DNA of 46,382 nt from Lachnospiraceae bacterium (GTDB lineage Bacteria; Bacillota; Clostridia; Lachnospirales; Lachnospiraceae), in NCBI GenBank assembly GCA_015057615.1, contig SVEA01000060.1, forward strand, positions 1-46,382. The letters are read 5' to 3'. The notes beneath the pieces were generated by a model, which worked only from the letters and a program-made list of their open reading frames with translations, was not told where the DNA came from and ran no database searches. A program made the position numbers and the translations under genes. Position 1 is the first letter of the stretch. Each line of letters begins with the position of its first letter. Below are positions 1 to 43,617 of the stretch, piece by piece.

Positions 1-159
1 ATGATATCTGATAAGGAGTATTTGCATTCGTCGGTACTTTGGCTCCGTATTTTGGAGCCTTATGTACCGCTACGTAATGCAACTAAGCGGAAGCGTCTCC
101 GAATCGGATACATTTGTCGAAATCATAACATGGTATACATGTTAGGTGTGAATAGTAAC
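1..159. repeat. Palindromic MITE, family A copy 1 (left end cut by window)
   Basis: This is the right three quarters of a roughly 200-bp palindromic element that recurs complete at 2278-2477 and 14610-14814. It ends with the terminal repeat GTGTGAATAGTAAC. The apical hairpin lies at 21-83 and contains CTTATGTACC, the complement of the GGTACATAAG core. An open frame runs through it, but that frame simply follows the repeat and is not a gene. All three family A copies have the same orientation. Confidence 0.85.
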
Positions 160-2269: not shown

Positions 2270-2485
2270 ATGGTATGGTTACTGTTCACACCCCTAACAA
2301 AGTCTATAGTATGATTTCGACAAATGATATCTGATAAGGAGTATTTGCATTCGTCGGTACTTTGGCTACGTATTTTGGAGCCTTATGTACCGCTACGTAA
2401 TGCAACGAAGCGAAAGCGTCTCCGATTCAGATACATTTGACGAAATCATAACATGATACATTGGGGTGAACAGTAACATGGTATG
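2270..2485. mobile_element. MITE family A copy 2 with 8-bp target duplication
   Basis: The element is 2278-2477 (200 bp). Its ends are GTTACTGTTCAC and the inverted GTGAACAGTAAC. The 8-bp direct repeat ATGGTATG flanks it exactly (2270-2277 and 2478-2485), which is a target-site duplication. Almost the whole element folds back on itself. The apical hairpin is at 2344-2406. It has no coding capacity, so it would need a transposase from elsewhere. It lies between the ROK kinase gene and murB and fills most of a 339-bp gap. Confidence 0.9.
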
Positions 2486-5864: not shown

Positions 5865-6175
5865 CAATATGATATGAGAGTCAAAAGCCGATTTATAAAC
5901 CAACTTCGTTAATTTGAGCAATTTATGTATTGGCAAGTAATATGAATCAAAATTCATTCGCAACACGCAGTTCCACAAAGCATTGCAAAAACGCAATACT
6001 TGGGTTGAAGTACGTAATGGTACATAAGATCATAAAACACATGATCTAAGTACCAATGACTTCAAACAGTTGCGTAGAGTAAAATATTGTTTCCTATTAC
6101 TTAAGCTTTACCTTGATTTGTGCAAAATGACGAAGACTATTTGCCAAGAAGGCTTTTGACACTCATATCCAATAT
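5865..6175. mobile_element. MITE family B copy 1 with 6-bp target duplication
   Basis: The element is 5871-6169 (299 bp). The left end GATATGAGAGTCAAAAGCC and the inverted right end (6151-6169) match at 18 of 19 positions. The 6-bp direct repeat CAATAT flanks it exactly (5865-5870, 6170-6175). The interior is a nested palindrome with a small hairpin TTGC/GCAA near 5983-5998 and the apical GGTACATAAG hairpin at 6004-6067. It ends 17 bp before the solute-binding protein start, so it occupies that gene's leader or promoter zone. A right-end TTGACA (6156-6161) points outward, but no convincing -10 box follows. Confidence 0.9.
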
Positions 6176-14601: not shown

Positions 14602-14822
14602 GTAGACCCGTTACTGTTCACACATGGGCAAAGTCTATCCTATGATTTCGACAAATGATATCCGATCAGGAGTATTTGCATTCGTTGGTACTTTAGCTCC
14701 GTATTTTGGAGCCTTATGTACCGCTACGTAATGAATCTTAAGCGAAAGCATCTCCGATTCGGATACATTTGACGAAATCATAACATGGTATACATGGTGG
14801 GTGTGAACAGTAACCTAGACCC
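14602..14822. mobile_element. MITE family A copy 3 with target duplication
   Basis: The element is 14610-14814 (205 bp), with ends GTTACTGTTCACAC and GTGTGAACAGTAAC (perfect 14-bp inverted repeat). The flanking 8-mers GTAGACCC (14602-14609) and CTAGACCC (14815-14822) match at 7 of 8 bases. The apical hairpin is at 14685-14737, with a partly decayed outer stem. Same orientation as the other two copies. Confidence 0.9.
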
Positions 14823-23492: not shown

Positions 23493-23565
23493 AGCAGACG
23501 GAAACCGGAAACGAAAATAAAGGGATATCGCATTAACAATTGAAAAGGCGCCACATAGAACTAGA

Positions 23566-23772
23566 ATGTTTATCACATCAATATCTAAAAAGAAGAGTGT
23601 GTGAATTATTATTCCATAAAGAGACCGTTTGTCGCCGTCGGTACTTAGGTTGTGGCAGATAACTATCTGTCACAGCCTTATGTACCGCTATGAGCGACAA
23701 CCGAGTGAGAACGTGTCTTATGTTGGATAATAATCACACACTCTTATTGAAAACCTAAAATGTGATAAACAT
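23566..23772. repeat. 207-bp nested palindrome, family D
   Basis: Ends are ATGTTTATCACAT (23566-23578) and its exact complement (23760-23772). A second inverted pair (AGAGTGTGTGA / TCACACACTCT) lies inside. The apical hairpin at 23627-23701 carries CTTATGTACC opposite GGTACTTAG, the same core as families A and B, with an extended top stem. No target duplication was seen. It fills most of the 375-bp gap 23493-23867. Confidence 0.8.
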
Positions 23773-23782
23773 CATTAACGTG

Positions 23783-23814
23783 AAAAGGGCGTCGTATAAT
23801 TAATGCGACGCCCC
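23783..23814 (-). terminator. Terminator of the small acidic protein gene
   Basis: GGGCGTCG pairs with CGACGCCC around an 11-base A/T-rich loop. On the minus strand it is followed by TTTT, about 55 bp beyond the stop of the gene at 23868-24203. Confidence 0.75.
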
Positions 23815-23867
23815 TTACCTAATAGCATATAAAATCAAAGGAAGCAAAAGAGGTAATGCAGGAAGGC

Positions 23868-27852: not shown

Positions 27853-28090
27853 GATCTGAGGGTCAAAAGCCTTCCTAATTAACACATTGTTTCCAAAGTG
27901 CTGCATAAAACGCAGCGCAAAGCATTGCAAAAAGCGAAATACCTGGATTGAAGTACGTAATGGTACATAAGATCACAGAATACGTGGGTCTAAGTACCAA
28001 CGACTTCAAACAGCTGCGCATAAAATATGTTTCATCTTACTTATGGAGGTATTAATTGCGCAAATCTTAGGTAAGAGGGTCAAAAGAGAC
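27853..28090. repeat. Family B variant with intact apical hairpin
   Basis: Starts GATCTGAGGGTCAAAAGCC, then joins the central part of family B directly, without the left arm. It includes the small hairpin GCTGC/GCAGC and the apical GGTACATAAG hairpin (27947-28011). The right side departs from the full element and ends with a direct, not inverted, GAGGGTCAAAAG. The right boundary is approximate. Confidence 0.65.
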
Positions 28091-28804: not shown

Positions 28805-30058
28805 TCATTTCTTTGGGTGCAGAATATCTCTTGTGAAGATATCGCTTTCCTTCAAAAGGCTTTCGATCGTATCAAATCCTAACCGGTGGAGCAGCTCAAT
28901 TACATAGGGATTATCAATCGGGGTTTGATAGGGAGAGGAATTTCCGTAGCCCTCTACATTCTTTCTGCCTTCCTCGTGAGGAATTAAGGCTCTTGGACCG
29001 CCGACGCAACCGCCGACGCATCCCATGCCCTCATAGAAGTTGGCGGTAATTCTACCCTCTAGGATATCATTGATCATTTCCTTACATGCCGAAACGCCGT
29101 GAGCCTGCTTGGTATGGATGGAAATGCTGCGTTTTGGATTGATCCGCTCCAGGGTAGAGGAAACCGCTTCGCTTACGCCGCCGGTGTGCGCATAGATTCT
29201 TCCTCCCCGAGAGGAGTGATCCTTCTCGCTTTCTTCCATTTTCAACGGATCGATTTCCATGATCTCAAAGACATCCTGCATTTCCTGAAAGGTGAGTACA
29301 AAATCTACAGCATCCACAATATCCGGCTCCTTTGCTTCCTTTTTCTTAGCAAGGCATGGCCCGATGAATATGGTTAGTGCATCCGGGTGCAGAGACTTCA
29401 CCGCACGTCCGCTGGCAATCATAGGGGACACCGCAGGGGGAACATGGGGTACAAGCTCAGAATATATTTTACGAATCATTGCGATCCACATTGGACAGCA
29501 GCAGCTGGTAAGCTGGTAGTCCGTCTCCGTCTTAATATTTACATCGAATTCCAGAGCTTCCTTTAAAGTAAGAATATCCGCGAACAAGGCGACCTCAACC
29601 ATACCGTCAAACCCGACCATCTTTAAAGCGGTGCGGAGCTTTCCGGGGGTAACTTCGCTGCCATACTGACCCAGAAAGGCAGGGGCAACAAGGGCATAGA
29701 CAAGACCTTTATGGGAATGTATCGCCTGGAGCGCAGGGATAATATCCTTACTGTTGGTTAAGTTCTTCTCTAGACATTCCTCGATACAGATGGAACAGCC
29801 CTCGCACTTTTCCTCATCAACCTCTATTTTTCCGGATTTGCCCGGATGGATCGCTTGAAACGGACATGCTTTTATGCAGTTCGGATCATCACCGCAATCA
29901 CAGTCTTTGGTGTGCCAGACAAGAGGGTGCTTCTCGGGATGCAGCAGGCAGTCCAGCTGATGTGTGTCATAGTAATCCATCTTTTCTAAAAGTCCCATAT
30001 CCTTATCCTTAAGTGTCCGCATCAAAACCTCATAATACAATTCTTCGAATGTTTTCAT
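28805..30058 (-). CDS. Hydrogenase-like [4Fe-4S] protein with divergent H-cluster motifs
   Basis: The 417-residue protein has two 4Fe-4S sites, Cys53-55-61-65 and Cys85-88-91-95 (CEGCSICIEEC), followed by an [FeFe]-hydrogenase large-subunit domain. The three H-cluster motifs are recognisable but altered: TSCCCPMW (184-191), GPCLAKKKEA (233-242) and GMGCVGGC (344-351), against TSCCPxW, MPCxxKKxE and MACPGGC in catalytic enzymes. It could be a sensory or low-activity hydrogenase or another iron-sulfur enzyme. AAAGGAG lies 5 bases before the ATG. It follows the V-ATPase operon on the same strand, separated by an inverted repeat. Confidence 0.85.
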   Translation of the reverse strand: MKTFEELYYEVLMRTLKDKDMGLLEKMDYYDTHQLDCLLHPEKHPLVWHTKDCDCGDDPNCIKACPFQAIHPGKSGKIEVDEEKCEGCSICIEECLEKNLTNSKDIIPALQAIHSHKGLVYALVAPAFLGQYGSEVTPGKLRTALKMVGFDGMVEVALFADILTLKEALEFDVNIKTETDYQLTSCCCPMWIAMIRKIYSELVPHVPPAVSPMIASGRAVKSLHPDALTIFIGPCLAKKKEAKEPDIVDAVDFVLTFQEMQDVFEIMEIDPLKMEESEKDHSSRGGRIYAHTGGVSEAVSSTLERINPKRSISIHTKQAHGVSACKEMINDILEGRITANFYEGMGCVGGCVGGPRALIPHEEGRKNVEGYGNSSPYQTPIDNPYVIELLHRLGFDTIESLLKESDIFTRDILHPKK

Positions 30059-30083
30059 GTTTCTCCTTTCCTTGGCAATACAA

Positions 30084-30180
30084 AATAGGTAATTGCAAAA
30101 CTTCGATATTGTAGGATTGTGTATATGCATCTGCTATAAACACAAATAATTCAACGAGAGAGTTTCGTAATTACCTAATA
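30084..30180. repeat. 97-bp inverted repeat
   Basis: AATAGGTAATTGCAAAACTT at the left is inverted as AGTTTCGTAATTACCTAAT at the right. A related single arm, AATAGGTATTTGCGAAACTT, lies at 35025-35044 and touches the stop codon of the V-ATPase K gene. It lies between the D-subunit gene and the hydrogenase-like gene. Confidence 0.65.
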
Positions 30181-34934: not shown

Positions 34935-34968
34935 GCCCTGACCTCCTTTCTTATATCAAACAAATAAT

Positions 34969-35019
34969 GATTTGAGAGCCAAAAGCCTTCCTAACAAATC
35001 GTCTTTTATTGCTCTCATC
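34969..35019. repeat. 51-bp mini repeat with family B-type ends
   Basis: Starts GATTTGAGAGCCAAAAGCC and ends GCTCTCATC, inverted to its start. It lies between the K and F genes of the ATPase operon. No exact target duplication was seen. Confidence 0.55.
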
Positions 35020-38519: not shown

Positions 38520-38554
38520 AGTTAATAACCACGCCTTTCAAAGCCTGCAATTTT

Positions 38555-38652
38555 GATTCAAGTGTCAAAAGCCGATTTATAAAACTAACTTCATCAATAT
38601 GCACAATTTATGCATAGATAAGTAATAGAAAATATATTCCATCCGCAACACG
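38555..38652. repeat. Family B fragment (left arm only), second example
   Basis: Starts GATTCAAGTGTCAAAAGCC and follows the left arm of family B for about 100 bp, stopping at CGCAACACGC. It lies in the gap between the first two ATPase genes. The break matches that of the fragment at 21437. Confidence 0.7.
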
Positions 38653-41241: not shown

Positions 41242-43320
41242 ATGAAGTATAAGGTATTATTCCAAAAGGAAAATGAAGAGATAAGAGAGAGATATCAACT
41301 TGCGATGGAACGGATCGGCGTGATGGAACAGGAGAAGACGGTCAAGGAGCCTTACAGTGATTATTTCCATAGGGAAGCATCCTTTGTCATGCTCATAAAG
41401 AGTATCGTGCAGATGGTGGAAGAGGAGCACTTGTCTACATATACGCTAAATGAATTACAATCCATTAACCGGTCCCTATATGAGGATCTTATTGGAGATA
41501 ATTATGAAGTCAGTTATACCAATCCGGCTTATGCCTGTGAGAAGCTGGGGAAGAAATATGGAAAGCTGCTTTCTTTTTTGACGGCGGAGTTGCGGAGTTT
41601 GATCGTATATGCCTATGAAAACAGGCTGTATGAGCTGACCATCTATTTGGAGCTGCTGATTGAAGTTTATAACTATTTTGAGAGGGAGGATGAATTTACT
41701 TACAAGGATGTAAAGCGGGTAATCTATGCATTTATGAGCGATTACTGCGATATCCTTGTGGAGTATCGTACCAGAGAGCTTCTGGATACCAACCTTTCCT
41801 ATATAACGGATATCATAATGGAATCAGATCTGTCGGATATCCGCTATCTCTATAAGTTTGGAGACTATATTACGGAAAATGAAATTAAGACAGCAGAGTA
41901 TATGAATTCCTTATCGGAAAAGCAGGTTCAGGCAATGGCGGATACCTTCACGGAAGGATACCGGCTGGGCTTTATCGCGAATCGTTTGGATCTTAGCAAA
42001 AAATCCATAGTAAATATTCGCTATCAGATCGGCTTTGAGCGGATGGTACGCTATGCTATCCAGAACTTCCGGAAATTAGGGCTGGAGCCTACGATCTACC
42101 GGGCGGCTTATAATGCTGTGAATAAGAGGCAGCATCTAAAGATCGGCTGCCACGGAACCAGTCCGAGCAGGCAGTATGAGTTTGACCATCGTTTTGATAT
42201 CGGCATCTTCTATGATAAAGCATTCCAGGTCCGCCAGTTAAAATGCCTGCAGGAATCCTATGAGAAATATAAGGAGCAGGGAGCTGCCTTCGCAGGTCCG
42301 TCCCTGATCGAGGTGTTCGGAGAGGAGATATTTATACCGGAGGACAAGAAGGAAGCGATCCGGCTGGATAAACGCCAGCAGAAATTATATGTGGATTGTA
42401 CGAACAAGGGTGCGCTGCTTTCCATGGAATATTTGAAGCTGGAGGAAACCTCCTTTACGATCATTGCCTATCCGATACCGGAGATCGGGAAGGATTATGA
42501 GGCGATTTTTACCGAGACGGTGAAGGTGAATACGCTGGACAGTGCCCTATATCAGAAAATACAGCAGAAAATCATTGATACCCTGGACCAGGGCGACTAT
42601 GTTCGGGTTCTCGGCGCAGGAAAGAATCATACCGATATGAAAGTGAAGCTTTATTCCCTTTTGGATCCGGCGAAGGAAACCATTTTCGAAAACTGCGTTG
42701 CGGATGTGAATATACCGGTCGGCGAGGTATTTACCTCTCCGGTATTAAAAGGTACGGAGGGTGTATTGCATGCGTCGAAGGTTTATCTAAATGATCTGGA
42801 ATATCGGGAGCTTAACCTTGTCTTTAAGGATGGGGTCATCACAGAATATACCTGCGGTAATTTTACAGAGGAAAGCAAAAACAAGAGCTTTGTGAAAGAA
42901 AATCTACTATTCGGCCACGATTCTCTTCCGCTTGGTGAATTCGCGATCGGAACGAATACAACGGCCTATATGATGGGAAAGAAATATGATATCGCACCCC
43001 GTCTGCCGATTCTGATTGCAGAGAAGACCGGTCCACATTTTGCTATCGGCGATACCTGCTACAAGCATAGTGAGGAAACTATGACCTATAATCCGGACGG
43101 GAAAGCAATCGTTGCCCGGGACAATGAGGTGTCTCTGCTTCGTAAAACCGATCTCGCGAAGGCGTATTTTAACTGCCATACGGATATCACATTACCTTAT
43201 GATGAACTGAAGGCGATCACCGTTTACTGTAAAGACGGAACTTCTATTCCGATTATAGAAAACGGCAGATTTGTACTGGAAGGCACCGAAGAGCTTAATA
43301 AAGCGTTCGATGAAAATTGA
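41242..43320 (+). CDS. M29-family aminopeptidase with long N-terminal extension
   Basis: The 692-residue protein has a C-terminal half carrying the M29 metallopeptidase ligands: Glu495 in GEVFTSP, Glu566 in LGEFAIG, His599 in EKTGPHFAIG, and His646 and Asp648 in CHTD. M29 enzymes are about 410 residues, so roughly the first 300 residues are an extra, helix-rich, Tyr- and Glu-rich region with no recognised domain. GGTGGAGGG precedes the ATG. The stop codon TGA is formed by the junction with MITE B2: its T belongs to the target duplication and GA to the element, so the original C-terminus may have been different. Confidence 0.85.
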   Translation: MKYKVLFQKENEEIRERYQLAMERIGVMEQEKTVKEPYSDYFHREASFVMLIKSIVQMVEEEHLSTYTLNELQSINRSLYEDLIGDNYEVSYTNPAYACEKLGKKYGKLLSFLTAELRSLIVYAYENRLYELTIYLELLIEVYNYFEREDEFTYKDVKRVIYAFMSDYCDILVEYRTRELLDTNLSYITDIIMESDLSDIRYLYKFGDYITENEIKTAEYMNSLSEKQVQAMADTFTEGYRLGFIANRLDLSKKSIVNIRYQIGFERMVRYAIQNFRKLGLEPTIYRAAYNAVNKRQHLKIGCHGTSPSRQYEFDHRFDIGIFYDKAFQVRQLKCLQESYEKYKEQGAAFAGPSLIEVFGEEIFIPEDKKEAIRLDKRQQKLYVDCTNKGALLSMEYLKLEETSFTIIAYPIPEIGKDYEAIFTETVKVNTLDSALYQKIQQKIIDTLDQGDYVRVLGAGKNHTDMKVKLYSLLDPAKETIFENCVADVNIPVGEVFTSPVLKGTEGVLHASKVYLNDLEYRELNLVFKDGVITEYTCGNFTEESKNKSFVKENLLFGHDSLPLGEFAIGTNTTAYMMGKKYDIAPRLPILIAEKTGPHFAIGDTCYKHSEETMTYNPDGKAIVARDNEVSLLRKTDLAKAYFNCHTDITLPYDELKAITVYCKDGTSIPIIENGRFVLEGTEELNKAFDEN

Positions 43321-43617
43321 TTTGCGTATCAAAAGCCGGTTTATAAAACAAACTTCATCATTTGCACAATTTATGTATTAGTAATATGAAACAAATTTTA
43401 TTCGCAGCACATGGTCTCATAAAGCACTGCATAAAACGCAGTACTTGGATTGAAGTACGTAATGGTACATAAGACCACAAAATACGTGGTCTAAGTTCCA
43501 ACGACTTCAAACAGTTGCGCATTAAAACATGTTTCATATTACTAATGTTTTTCCTTGCTTTGTGCAAATTGAAGAAGACAATTTGTTAAGAAGGCTTTTG
43601 ACACTCGTATCAAAATT
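43313..43617. mobile_element. MITE family B copy 2 with 6-bp target duplication
   Basis: The element is 43319-43611 (293 bp), starting GATTTGCGTATCAAAAGCC and ending GGCTTTTGACACTCGTATC. The exact 6-bp direct repeat AAAATT flanks it (43313-43318, 43612-43617). It contains the small hairpin ACTGC/GCAGT and the apical GGTACATAAG hairpin (43449-43512). The left junction creates the stop codon of the peptidase gene and the right junction is 24 bp before the ABC ATPase gene. Confidence 0.92.

Follow-up and report, generated by a model that had tools for sequence, protein, structure and literature searches.

A covarying hairpin core common to palindromic MITE-like elements with different ends in Lachnospiraceae

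RESULTS

Hairpins in the window

The window is the whole stretch of DNA that was analyzed, 46,382 nucleotides of contig SVEA01000060.1 from a Lachnospiraceae bacterium (GCA_015057615.1). It contains seven hairpins of three families, A, B, and D, most of them within longer palindromes (Table 1). A sequence-only reading had proposed that these seven share one core. All seven lie where it had placed them, and six fold as it claimed. The third family A stretch, given as 14685 to 14737, folds in its upper part only. Its place was right, and the stretch was too short.

An unfiltered search of the window with a covariance model, R1, gave exactly seven matches, with scores of 75.8 to 101.3 bits. The next-best match scored 15.7 bits (E = 0.22). 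R1 was trained on 23 copies from the same genome, with the seven of the window among the own-genome copies used. Genomes (G) and loci (L) are numbered below, and G000 is the genome of the window. The end of the first family B element resembles GGGTGTCAAAAGCCC of elements in G166 and G110.

The window also contains a 90-bp palindromic remnant at 30087 to 30176. It has family C-type ends (AGGTAATTGCAAAACT and AGTTTCGTAATTACCT) and no core hairpin, and it sits at the start of the minus-strand ORF 28805 to 30130. A target duplication was sought around this remnant and was not found. Family B-type end repeats with no adjoining core hairpin are present at 34964 to 34995 and 38549 to 38606. These are possibly deleted copies.

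Table 1. Core hairpins in the window and the elements that contain them
Feature	Position	Strand	Observation
Core hairpin, family A copy 1	15..100	-	R1 99.1 bits; contig start cuts element; right end repeat 146-159
Core hairpin, family A copy 2	2338..2423	-	R1 95.7 bits
Complete family A element (L025)	2278..2477	.	Terminal inverted repeat GTTACTGTTCACAC; 8-bp target duplication ATGGTATG at 2270-2277 and 2478-2485
Core hairpin, family B copy 1	5987..6072	+	R1 101.3 bits, plus fold
Palindromic MITE-like element, family B copy 1	5871..6169	.	Inverted repeats 5871-5889 / 6151-6169 (19 nt, 95%), nested arms
Core hairpin, family A copy 3	14669..14755	-	R1 80.9 bits
Complete family A element (L027)	14610..14814	.	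Duplication GTAGACCC / CTAGACCC, 7/8
Core hairpin, family D, top stem lengthened	23622..23718	-	R1 75.8 bits
Palindromic element, family D	23520..23816	.	Nested arms 23520-23536/23800-23816, 23566-23578/23760-23772, 23590-23604/23734-23748
Core hairpin, family B copy 2	27930..28016	+	R1 90.6 bits
Core hairpin, family B copy 3	43432..43517	+	R1 100.3 bits
Palindromic element, family B copy 3, limits approximate	43314..43617	.	Repeats D4 and I1; arms 43377-43400 / 43523-43546

Structure of the core

The core is a hairpin, as had been described. It is larger than described, with a size of about 86 positions that includes an extra outer stem of the AGAC/GTCT type. On the model strand, the 5' part of the consensus contains this outer stem, the side segment ACGCTYNCGCT, and a variable 7-bp stem. 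The middle contains CGT/ACG, a bulged A-R, YGGTAC/GTACCR, and a bulged A. The top contains a T-A pair, an A·A mismatch, an A-T pair, a variable 6-bp stem, and the loop AAAATAC. The ATAAG and TAA flanks, formerly read as a loop, are mostly paired instead and leave the bulged A and the one A·A mismatch.

The 5' side segment folds into a mini-hairpin whose two pairs covary and are 98.0% paired in 101 distinct copies. Apart from family B of this genome, most copies have it. It is missing from at least 15 of 177 copies, mainly this genome's family B, where the loop is AATA. The mini-hairpin loop fits GNRA on the reverse strand. Its first base fits in 95 of the 101 copies, its third is a purine in 100, its last fits in 97, and its second is never T. 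In the same 101 copies, column 33 is U-A (74) or C-G (27), and column 35 is G (71), A (29), or T (1).

The top of the hairpin varies in two ways. The top stem is lengthened in family D, L042, L094 to L096, and L057. Further hairpins take the place of the apex or are added to it in L125, L126, L130, L131, and L138.

Covariation

The proposed combination of covarying stems and conserved unpaired bases was borne out, and the covariation is very strong in both the own-genome and the wider copy sets. Alignment A1 contains 23 of 25 own-genome copies, with the odd copies L019 and L023 left out. Its pairing cells are 94.8% paired, compared with 84.2% after shuffling, and 59 cells are double changed, compared with 21.1. 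The wider set contains 101 distinct copies, nearly all from other genera. In this set, both sides have changed in 27 of 28 pairs, and the share of paired cells is 94.5% (83.7% in the outer stem alone). It contains 823 double-changed cells, versus 216 in shuffled and 123 to 189 in slid versions, and its covariation score is 0.747 versus 0.213. Four of five covariation measures were matched by only 0 to 1 of 500 shuffles. The fifth, further pair types, did not exceed the shuffles in the 23-copy or the 101-copy set.

Between genera, many stem positions have three or four pair types, and the unpaired positions are near-invariant. Something appears to depend on the shape of the core, because the stems change in matching pairs while the loops stay nearly fixed.

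Pair types

The inner stems of 177 distinct copies contain 3,854 cells, of which 3,661 are Watson-Crick, 40 are G·T, 50 are A·C, and 103 are other. In the 101 copies mostly from other genera, 2,209 inner-stem cells include 11 G·T and 14 A·C. The outer stem (708 cells) has 26 G·T, 41 A·C, and 91 other. The mini-hairpin (354 cells) has 19 G·T and 7 A·C, a count dominated by the family B copies that are missing the mini-hairpin. Nine tRNAs from the same loci served as a crude, small control and gave 14 G·U and 1 A·C in 108 cells; cloverleaf positions were fixed in this control, and 15 of the 108 cells are neither standard pairs nor A·C.

Selection for pairing in an RNA should enrich G·U on the strand that is used, and the inner stems show no clear enrichment on either one. 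This, together with the lack of gene-orientation bias (see below), favors the earlier lean toward a DNA role. The GNRA-like loop and the A-rich unpaired positions would suit RNA. GNRA loops are stable in DNA too, as noted in PMC8794818. We consider DNA about twice as likely as RNA.

Distribution

Searching the genome and related Lachnospiraceae with a model of the core had been suggested as a check, and copies were abundant. G000 (4.07 Mb in 215 contigs) contains 150 exact matches to the core pattern, 61 forward and 89 reverse. A reversed control pattern gave 0 matches in the same genome. R1 matched at least 69 of 299 genomes of the same family, sampled at about one genome per genus (E <= 0.001). 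It matched at least 6 of 291 genomes in a class sample and at least 3 of 398 in a phylum sample, all of them inside the same family. These multi-genome counts are lower bounds, with 15 candidates per genome scored in the 299-genome run and in one class or phylum run and 11 in another, and the class and phylum runs used strict filters, with which weak matches may be lost. Named matching genomes are Lachnospiraceae MAGs (L061 and L063) and Butyrivibrio sp. NC3005 (L062). These three matches came from a pattern with one extra base in the 5' half of the top stem and are off-length variants. Within the genomes sampled, the core is confined to Lachnospiraceae.

In Butyrivibrio, 24 of 41 genomes have an R1 match, with 1 to 83 copies each; the 83 are those of Butyrivibrio sp. 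NC3005. The core has no essential host role, because the other 17 have no match.

No Rfam family scored above its gathering threshold (Rfam 15; 0 matches in the window). Relaxed thresholds gave sub-threshold matches only, two near the first family B copy and two in five loci. The best of the weak matches was Spy1186876 on an arm of L048 (E = 0.087). A plasmid search with one family A element and a phage search with one family B element gave no match, and the exact core pattern was absent from viral contigs. A description of the core was sought in the literature, and none was named in titles or abstract openings. The words Lachnospir- and Butyrivibrio do not occur in the searched text of a review of prokaryotic MITEs (PMC10969869).

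A number of the 215 contigs of G000 begin or end within core-bearing elements. The true copy number is therefore probably higher, and parent insertion sequences may have been missed.

Elements around the core

The core is the apex of a longer palindrome in the copies inspected (two sets of 35, plus others), with weak arms in L031. The elements are about 200 to 300 bp, are present in multiple copies, and have no coding capacity. That one core is common to palindromic families with unrelated ends held up, since families A and C have differing terminal repeats and duplication lengths.

(a) Family A. The elements are about 200 to 205 bp, and the terminal inverted repeat is GTTACTGTTCACAC. An 8-bp duplication flanks the elements, with 6 of 14 identical, 3 with one mismatch, and 5 worse (9 of 14 at 7/8 or better). 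Mismatched flank pairs reached 7/8 or better in 2 of 182 cases.

(b) Family B. The terminal inverted repeat is about GGTTYGGGTGTCAAAAGCCC in G166 and G110 and has a diverged form in this genome. The end may resemble those of ISL3 elements. Two G166 elements have duplications of 8/8 and 7/8, as the best of six placements. L015, the one complete family B element tested from this genome, has flanks that match at 4/8 and no duplication.

(c) Family C. This family was retrieved from other genera, and the terminal inverted repeat is AGGYRATTGYGAAACT. Direct repeats of 9 to 13 bp with at most one mismatch, about 11 bp long, are present at the ends of 18 of 27 elements, a set that includes some elements without the core. 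Mismatched pairs gave 3 of 702.

Families A and C have the features of MITEs that were tested, namely, terminal inverted repeats, target duplications, non-autonomy, and multiple copies. Different transposases presumably move elements that share one core, because A and C differ in ends and duplication length. The earlier reading had leaned toward a role for the hairpin in transposition. This was not borne out as stated, with the core central and not at the transposing ends; terminal repeats and target duplications of the ordinary kind are present in both A and C, which leaves a direct role of the hairpin unsupported.

Core-less or part-core elements with the same ends were also retrieved (L122, L123, L127 to L129, and L143). 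They look like deletion derivatives at short repeats. End scans of seven genomes found end pairs about 60 to 430 bp apart among the pairs listed. No autonomous parent element with the same ends was among those pairs. Many copies are located at contig ends.

Gene neighborhood

Mixed orientation of the motif to genes had been noted in the window, and 119 copies show the same lack of bias with crude ORF calls. The upstream gene is on the same strand in 57 and on the opposite strand in 55; for the downstream gene, the counts are 50 and 59. There is also no bias in GC skew (positive in 65 of 119). With the same crude ORFs, 70 of the 119 copies lie between co-directional genes, 17 between convergent genes, and 15 between divergent genes.

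A protein family that co-occurs with the motif had been suggested as a further check, and none was found. Neighboring ORFs matched 248 Pfam families, of which the 25 commonest are ordinary ones and include no transposase (144 of 164 neighboring ORFs scanned); a rare transposase may be hidden among the others. Y1_Tnp, the sole family compared genus-wide, does not track the motif. Among 41 Butyrivibrio genomes, G602, G613, G614, and G618 have the hairpin without Y1_Tnp (G613 and G618 are 97 to 100% complete). G586, G592, G600, G601, and G617, among others, have Y1_Tnp without a hairpin match.

Three candidate associations were set aside. Aminoacyl-tRNA synthetase genes appeared enriched among the neighbors (5 of 144), and three of the five are one orthologous locus. 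Convergent hairpins might have been transposon ends that enclose a gene; the intervening ORFs in L074, L046, L104, L062, and L085 look like ordinary host genes by eye. A literature search on an sso-like single-strand origin yielded nothing useful.

Neighboring cores in convergent order (plus and then minus) were seen in about ten cases (L035, L046/L074, L050, L060, L061, L062, L085, L104, L106, and L119). Several convergent pairs are 190 to 340 bases apart. No divergent pair lies within 3 kb among the fetched loci. In the own genome, at least one pair is divergent, at a spacing of 3.3 kb (contig C5).

Change in place between Butyrivibrio species

G207 and G475 are genomes of two Butyrivibrio species. 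They have 11 hairpins in common, including two at a single place that are separated by 1 kb, and the long matches around them are 86 to 97% identical, elements included. The core differs at 0 to 3 positions in nine of the 11 pairs and at 20 in L174/L167. L166/L078 has a few differences and one indel.

Compensated changes occurred at pair 20-76 of L068/L064 (T-A versus A-T), at seven pairs of L174/L167, and in the outer stem of L166/L078. One-sided changes occurred in L046/L074, L073/L069, L178/L173, and L180/L175. By hand count over the 11 pairs, near-invariant positions have about 2 changes in about 200 (T37 in L174 and an inserted A in L166). Positions that are variable anyway (the bulge purine, the fifth loop base, and the mini-loop pyrimidine) have about eight by the same count. 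At L174/L167/L197, a different copy may have taken over the site or a second element may have inserted, and either would account for part of the stem changes.

The arms changed too. L176/L171 has an identical core, and both arms are largely new yet still complementary. L166/L078 has a 93% identical core and arms replaced complementarily. Of the 11 pairs, 4 have arms that match their own partners better than those of the second species, strongly so in L176/L171 and L166/L078; in 4 pairs the fit is equal, and in 3 the own partner fits less well. The summed scores are 460 for the own partner and 408.5 for the other. Whole-arm copying as the only source of pairing changes, with no conserved loop bases, had been named in advance as an observation that would speak against the motif. 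Replacement of the kind that such copying would produce is seen in the outer arms of some loci (L166/L078 and L176/L171); the core and its unpaired bases are largely conserved.

Four G207 hairpins have no G475 match. The L079 insertion is absent from four relatives, with no target duplication seen, and L168 is absent from two. Remnants remain at the L179 and L172 sites in G475, and these look like deletions.

A core beside a prfC-like gene

One locus contains what we take to be an S1-domain gene followed by a release-factor-3-like (prfC-like) gene. It was matched in 40 of 41 searched genomes, and 19 intergenic regions were read. The core is present in six Butyrivibrio species (49.8 to 61.4 bits) and in a weak form in a seventh (22.7 bits). 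In the six, it lies inside an apparent terminator hairpin of the upstream gene, judged by eye (L247, L248, L250, L259, L265, and L268). These cores fall into at least two groups with differing stems and arms, and the two may reflect separate insertions at this site. In several further species, a plain hairpin that resembles a terminator precedes the prfC-like gene.

The outer-stem state at this locus is G-C in G207, A·C in G475, and A-T in G593 and G621. Between G584 and G585, both arms have changed in a matching way, AAAAC/GTTTT versus AAATC/GATTT. The sole R1 match of the G585 genome is at this locus, and in it the A·A mismatch has turned into a pair. Correction within the core therefore does occur. 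With T37 in L174 and the inserted A in L166, this is one of the near-conserved core positions altered in place.

DISCUSSION

We give an even chance to the reading that the seven hairpins are copies of a shape-defined core, the apex of a non-autonomous palindromic superfamily, and that this core is a DNA hairpin recognized in trans with arms maintained partly by template switching. The core would act as a putative DNA hairpin, single-stranded or extruded, that is bound by a trans-acting factor. The complementarity of the arms would be kept partly through replication template switching between them. The core may help any element that carries it, or the host may tolerate or co-opt it, no matter which transposase provides the ends. 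PMC8794818 describes cases in which template switching from one hairpin arm to the other creates or corrects stems in a single step and keeps the loop. Here such switching would account for the Watson-Crick-only covariation, the complementary indels, and the fast turnover of arms. It leaves the conserved bulges and mismatches unexplained, which points to selection on a recognized shape, and from this we infer a DNA hairpin read in trans. One shape is common to elements with different ends and duplication lengths. This suggests that the shape itself is selected or actively spreading, which goes beyond what plain MITEs require.

A structured RNA is a rather unlikely explanation. The element would be transcribed, and the core would be a functional RNA, most likely on the strand opposite to R1, with a GNRA tetraloop and U-rich internal loops. 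The reverse-strand loop of the mini-hairpin fits GNRA and sits on a covarying two-pair stem, the unpaired bases are conserved, and the constraint is seen in situ. PMC3049150 describes expression and a predicted fold for the BOX repeats of pneumococcus. By eye, most one-sided core changes between orthologs yield C·A or A·C on the R1 strand and hence G·U on the opposite strand (L046/L074, L178/L173, and L166/L078). In the arms of L176/L171, the R1 strand has T·G and G·T mismatches. Against RNA, G·T or G·U does not outnumber A·C in the inner stems, whichever strand is read, copies have no gene-orientation bias, and no Rfam family reached its threshold. It is still less probable that the core has no function. 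The elements would then be ordinary MITEs from one palindromic ancestor with exchanged ends, with stems that covary through template switching only and loops that are alike by descent. The terminal repeats, the duplications, and arms rewritten in step fit this, as do the deletion-like core-less copies, the patchy distribution, and the lack of an associated gene among the commonest neighboring families listed. Between genera, however, varied pair types in the stems stand against near-invariant unpaired positions. In place, the near-invariant positions changed about twice in about 200, where the long matches differ by 3 to 14%. Arm-to-arm correction would also erase bulges and mismatches, yet most persist.

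A benefit to the host seems very unlikely. The core would be a regulatory or chromosomal element, for example, a terminator extension or a nucleoid site, that is merely spread by transposition. It persists under constraint at the 11 hairpins common to G207 and G475, and in six species it lies inside the apparent terminator before the prfC-like gene. Copies are nevertheless present in co-directional, convergent, and divergent gene settings alike, R1 finds nothing in 17 of the 41 Butyrivibrio genomes, and copies appear to have been lost by deletion at the L179 and L172 sites in G475. We give next to no credence to a REP-like single-stranded element whose hairpin is read by a mobilizing Y1 transposase of the IS200/RAYT type. 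Many copies have GTAG or GTAA before an imperfect hairpin, as do the GTAG REPs described in PMC3733652. This tag is not invariant, however, and its T belongs to a covarying stem pair (column 33). The elements also have terminal repeats with 8- or about 11-bp duplications, and Y1_Tnp and the hairpin do not co-occur in the 41 Butyrivibrio genomes. A different and improbable idea is that the core is a fold-back seed that makes new mobile families. Folded single-stranded DNA would prime or promote template switching, and flanking sequence would be copied across as an inverted repeat. If the copied flank held a resident insertion-sequence end, the product would at once be a new MITE with two matching ends. 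If true, this would explain one core with unrelated, transposase-specific ends, the complementary rewriting of arms in place, and the origin of new MITE families.

The core and its elements have likenesses in several known systems. Integron attC sites and the end hairpins of IS200/IS605 elements have variable stems and conserved extrahelical bases and are recognized as single-stranded DNA. The likeness to the core lies in those variable stems and extrahelical bases. Unlike them, the copies have no recombinase gene or cassette array seen beside them, and the hairpin is central, not terminal. The elements resemble MITEs in that they are short, mostly intergenic, and gene-less and have terminal inverted repeats, target duplications, a long fold-back, and many copies. 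They are unlike MITEs in that one conserved structured apex is found across families with differing ends and duplication lengths. GTAG and CGTC REPs with RAYTs also have imperfect hairpins, short conserved unpaired bases, and many copies, but they are 20 to 40 bp with a GTAG or CGTC tag (PMC3733652). In this core, the GTAG position covaries, terminal repeats are present, and Y1 does not co-occur. Streptococcal BOX elements are modular, and Streptococcus suis has two BOX types with different end modules around the same boxB (PMC3049150). BOX elements are from other bacteria and have tandem boxB modules, according to the same text. By analogy, S. suis BOX is the nearest precedent for a common inner module with different ends. 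The word covariation is absent from the main text of that paper. The stems made by template switching (quasipalindromes) in PMC8794818 are alike in compensated stems, one-step complementary changes, and a kept loop. The cases treated there are rRNA and microRNA genes, whereas those here are mobile palindromes with longer arms.

The elements lend themselves to telling apart RNA-level selection, DNA-hairpin recognition, and template switching when the source of covariation is sought. They bear on how far covariation counts as evidence for RNA.

The apex itself contains further hairpin units in some loci. L130 and L131 (G094) are relatives of about 350 bp with four near-perfect hairpins in place of the top loop, in two opposite orientations. 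A second small hairpin unit, CTTAGCGAGG..CGAGCTTAG (in reverse, CTAAGCTCG-AAAAWACC-TCGCTAAG), replaces or multiplies the apical part in L125, L126, L138, L275, and others. This unit looks like a further mobile hairpin family, and it is repeated within L275.
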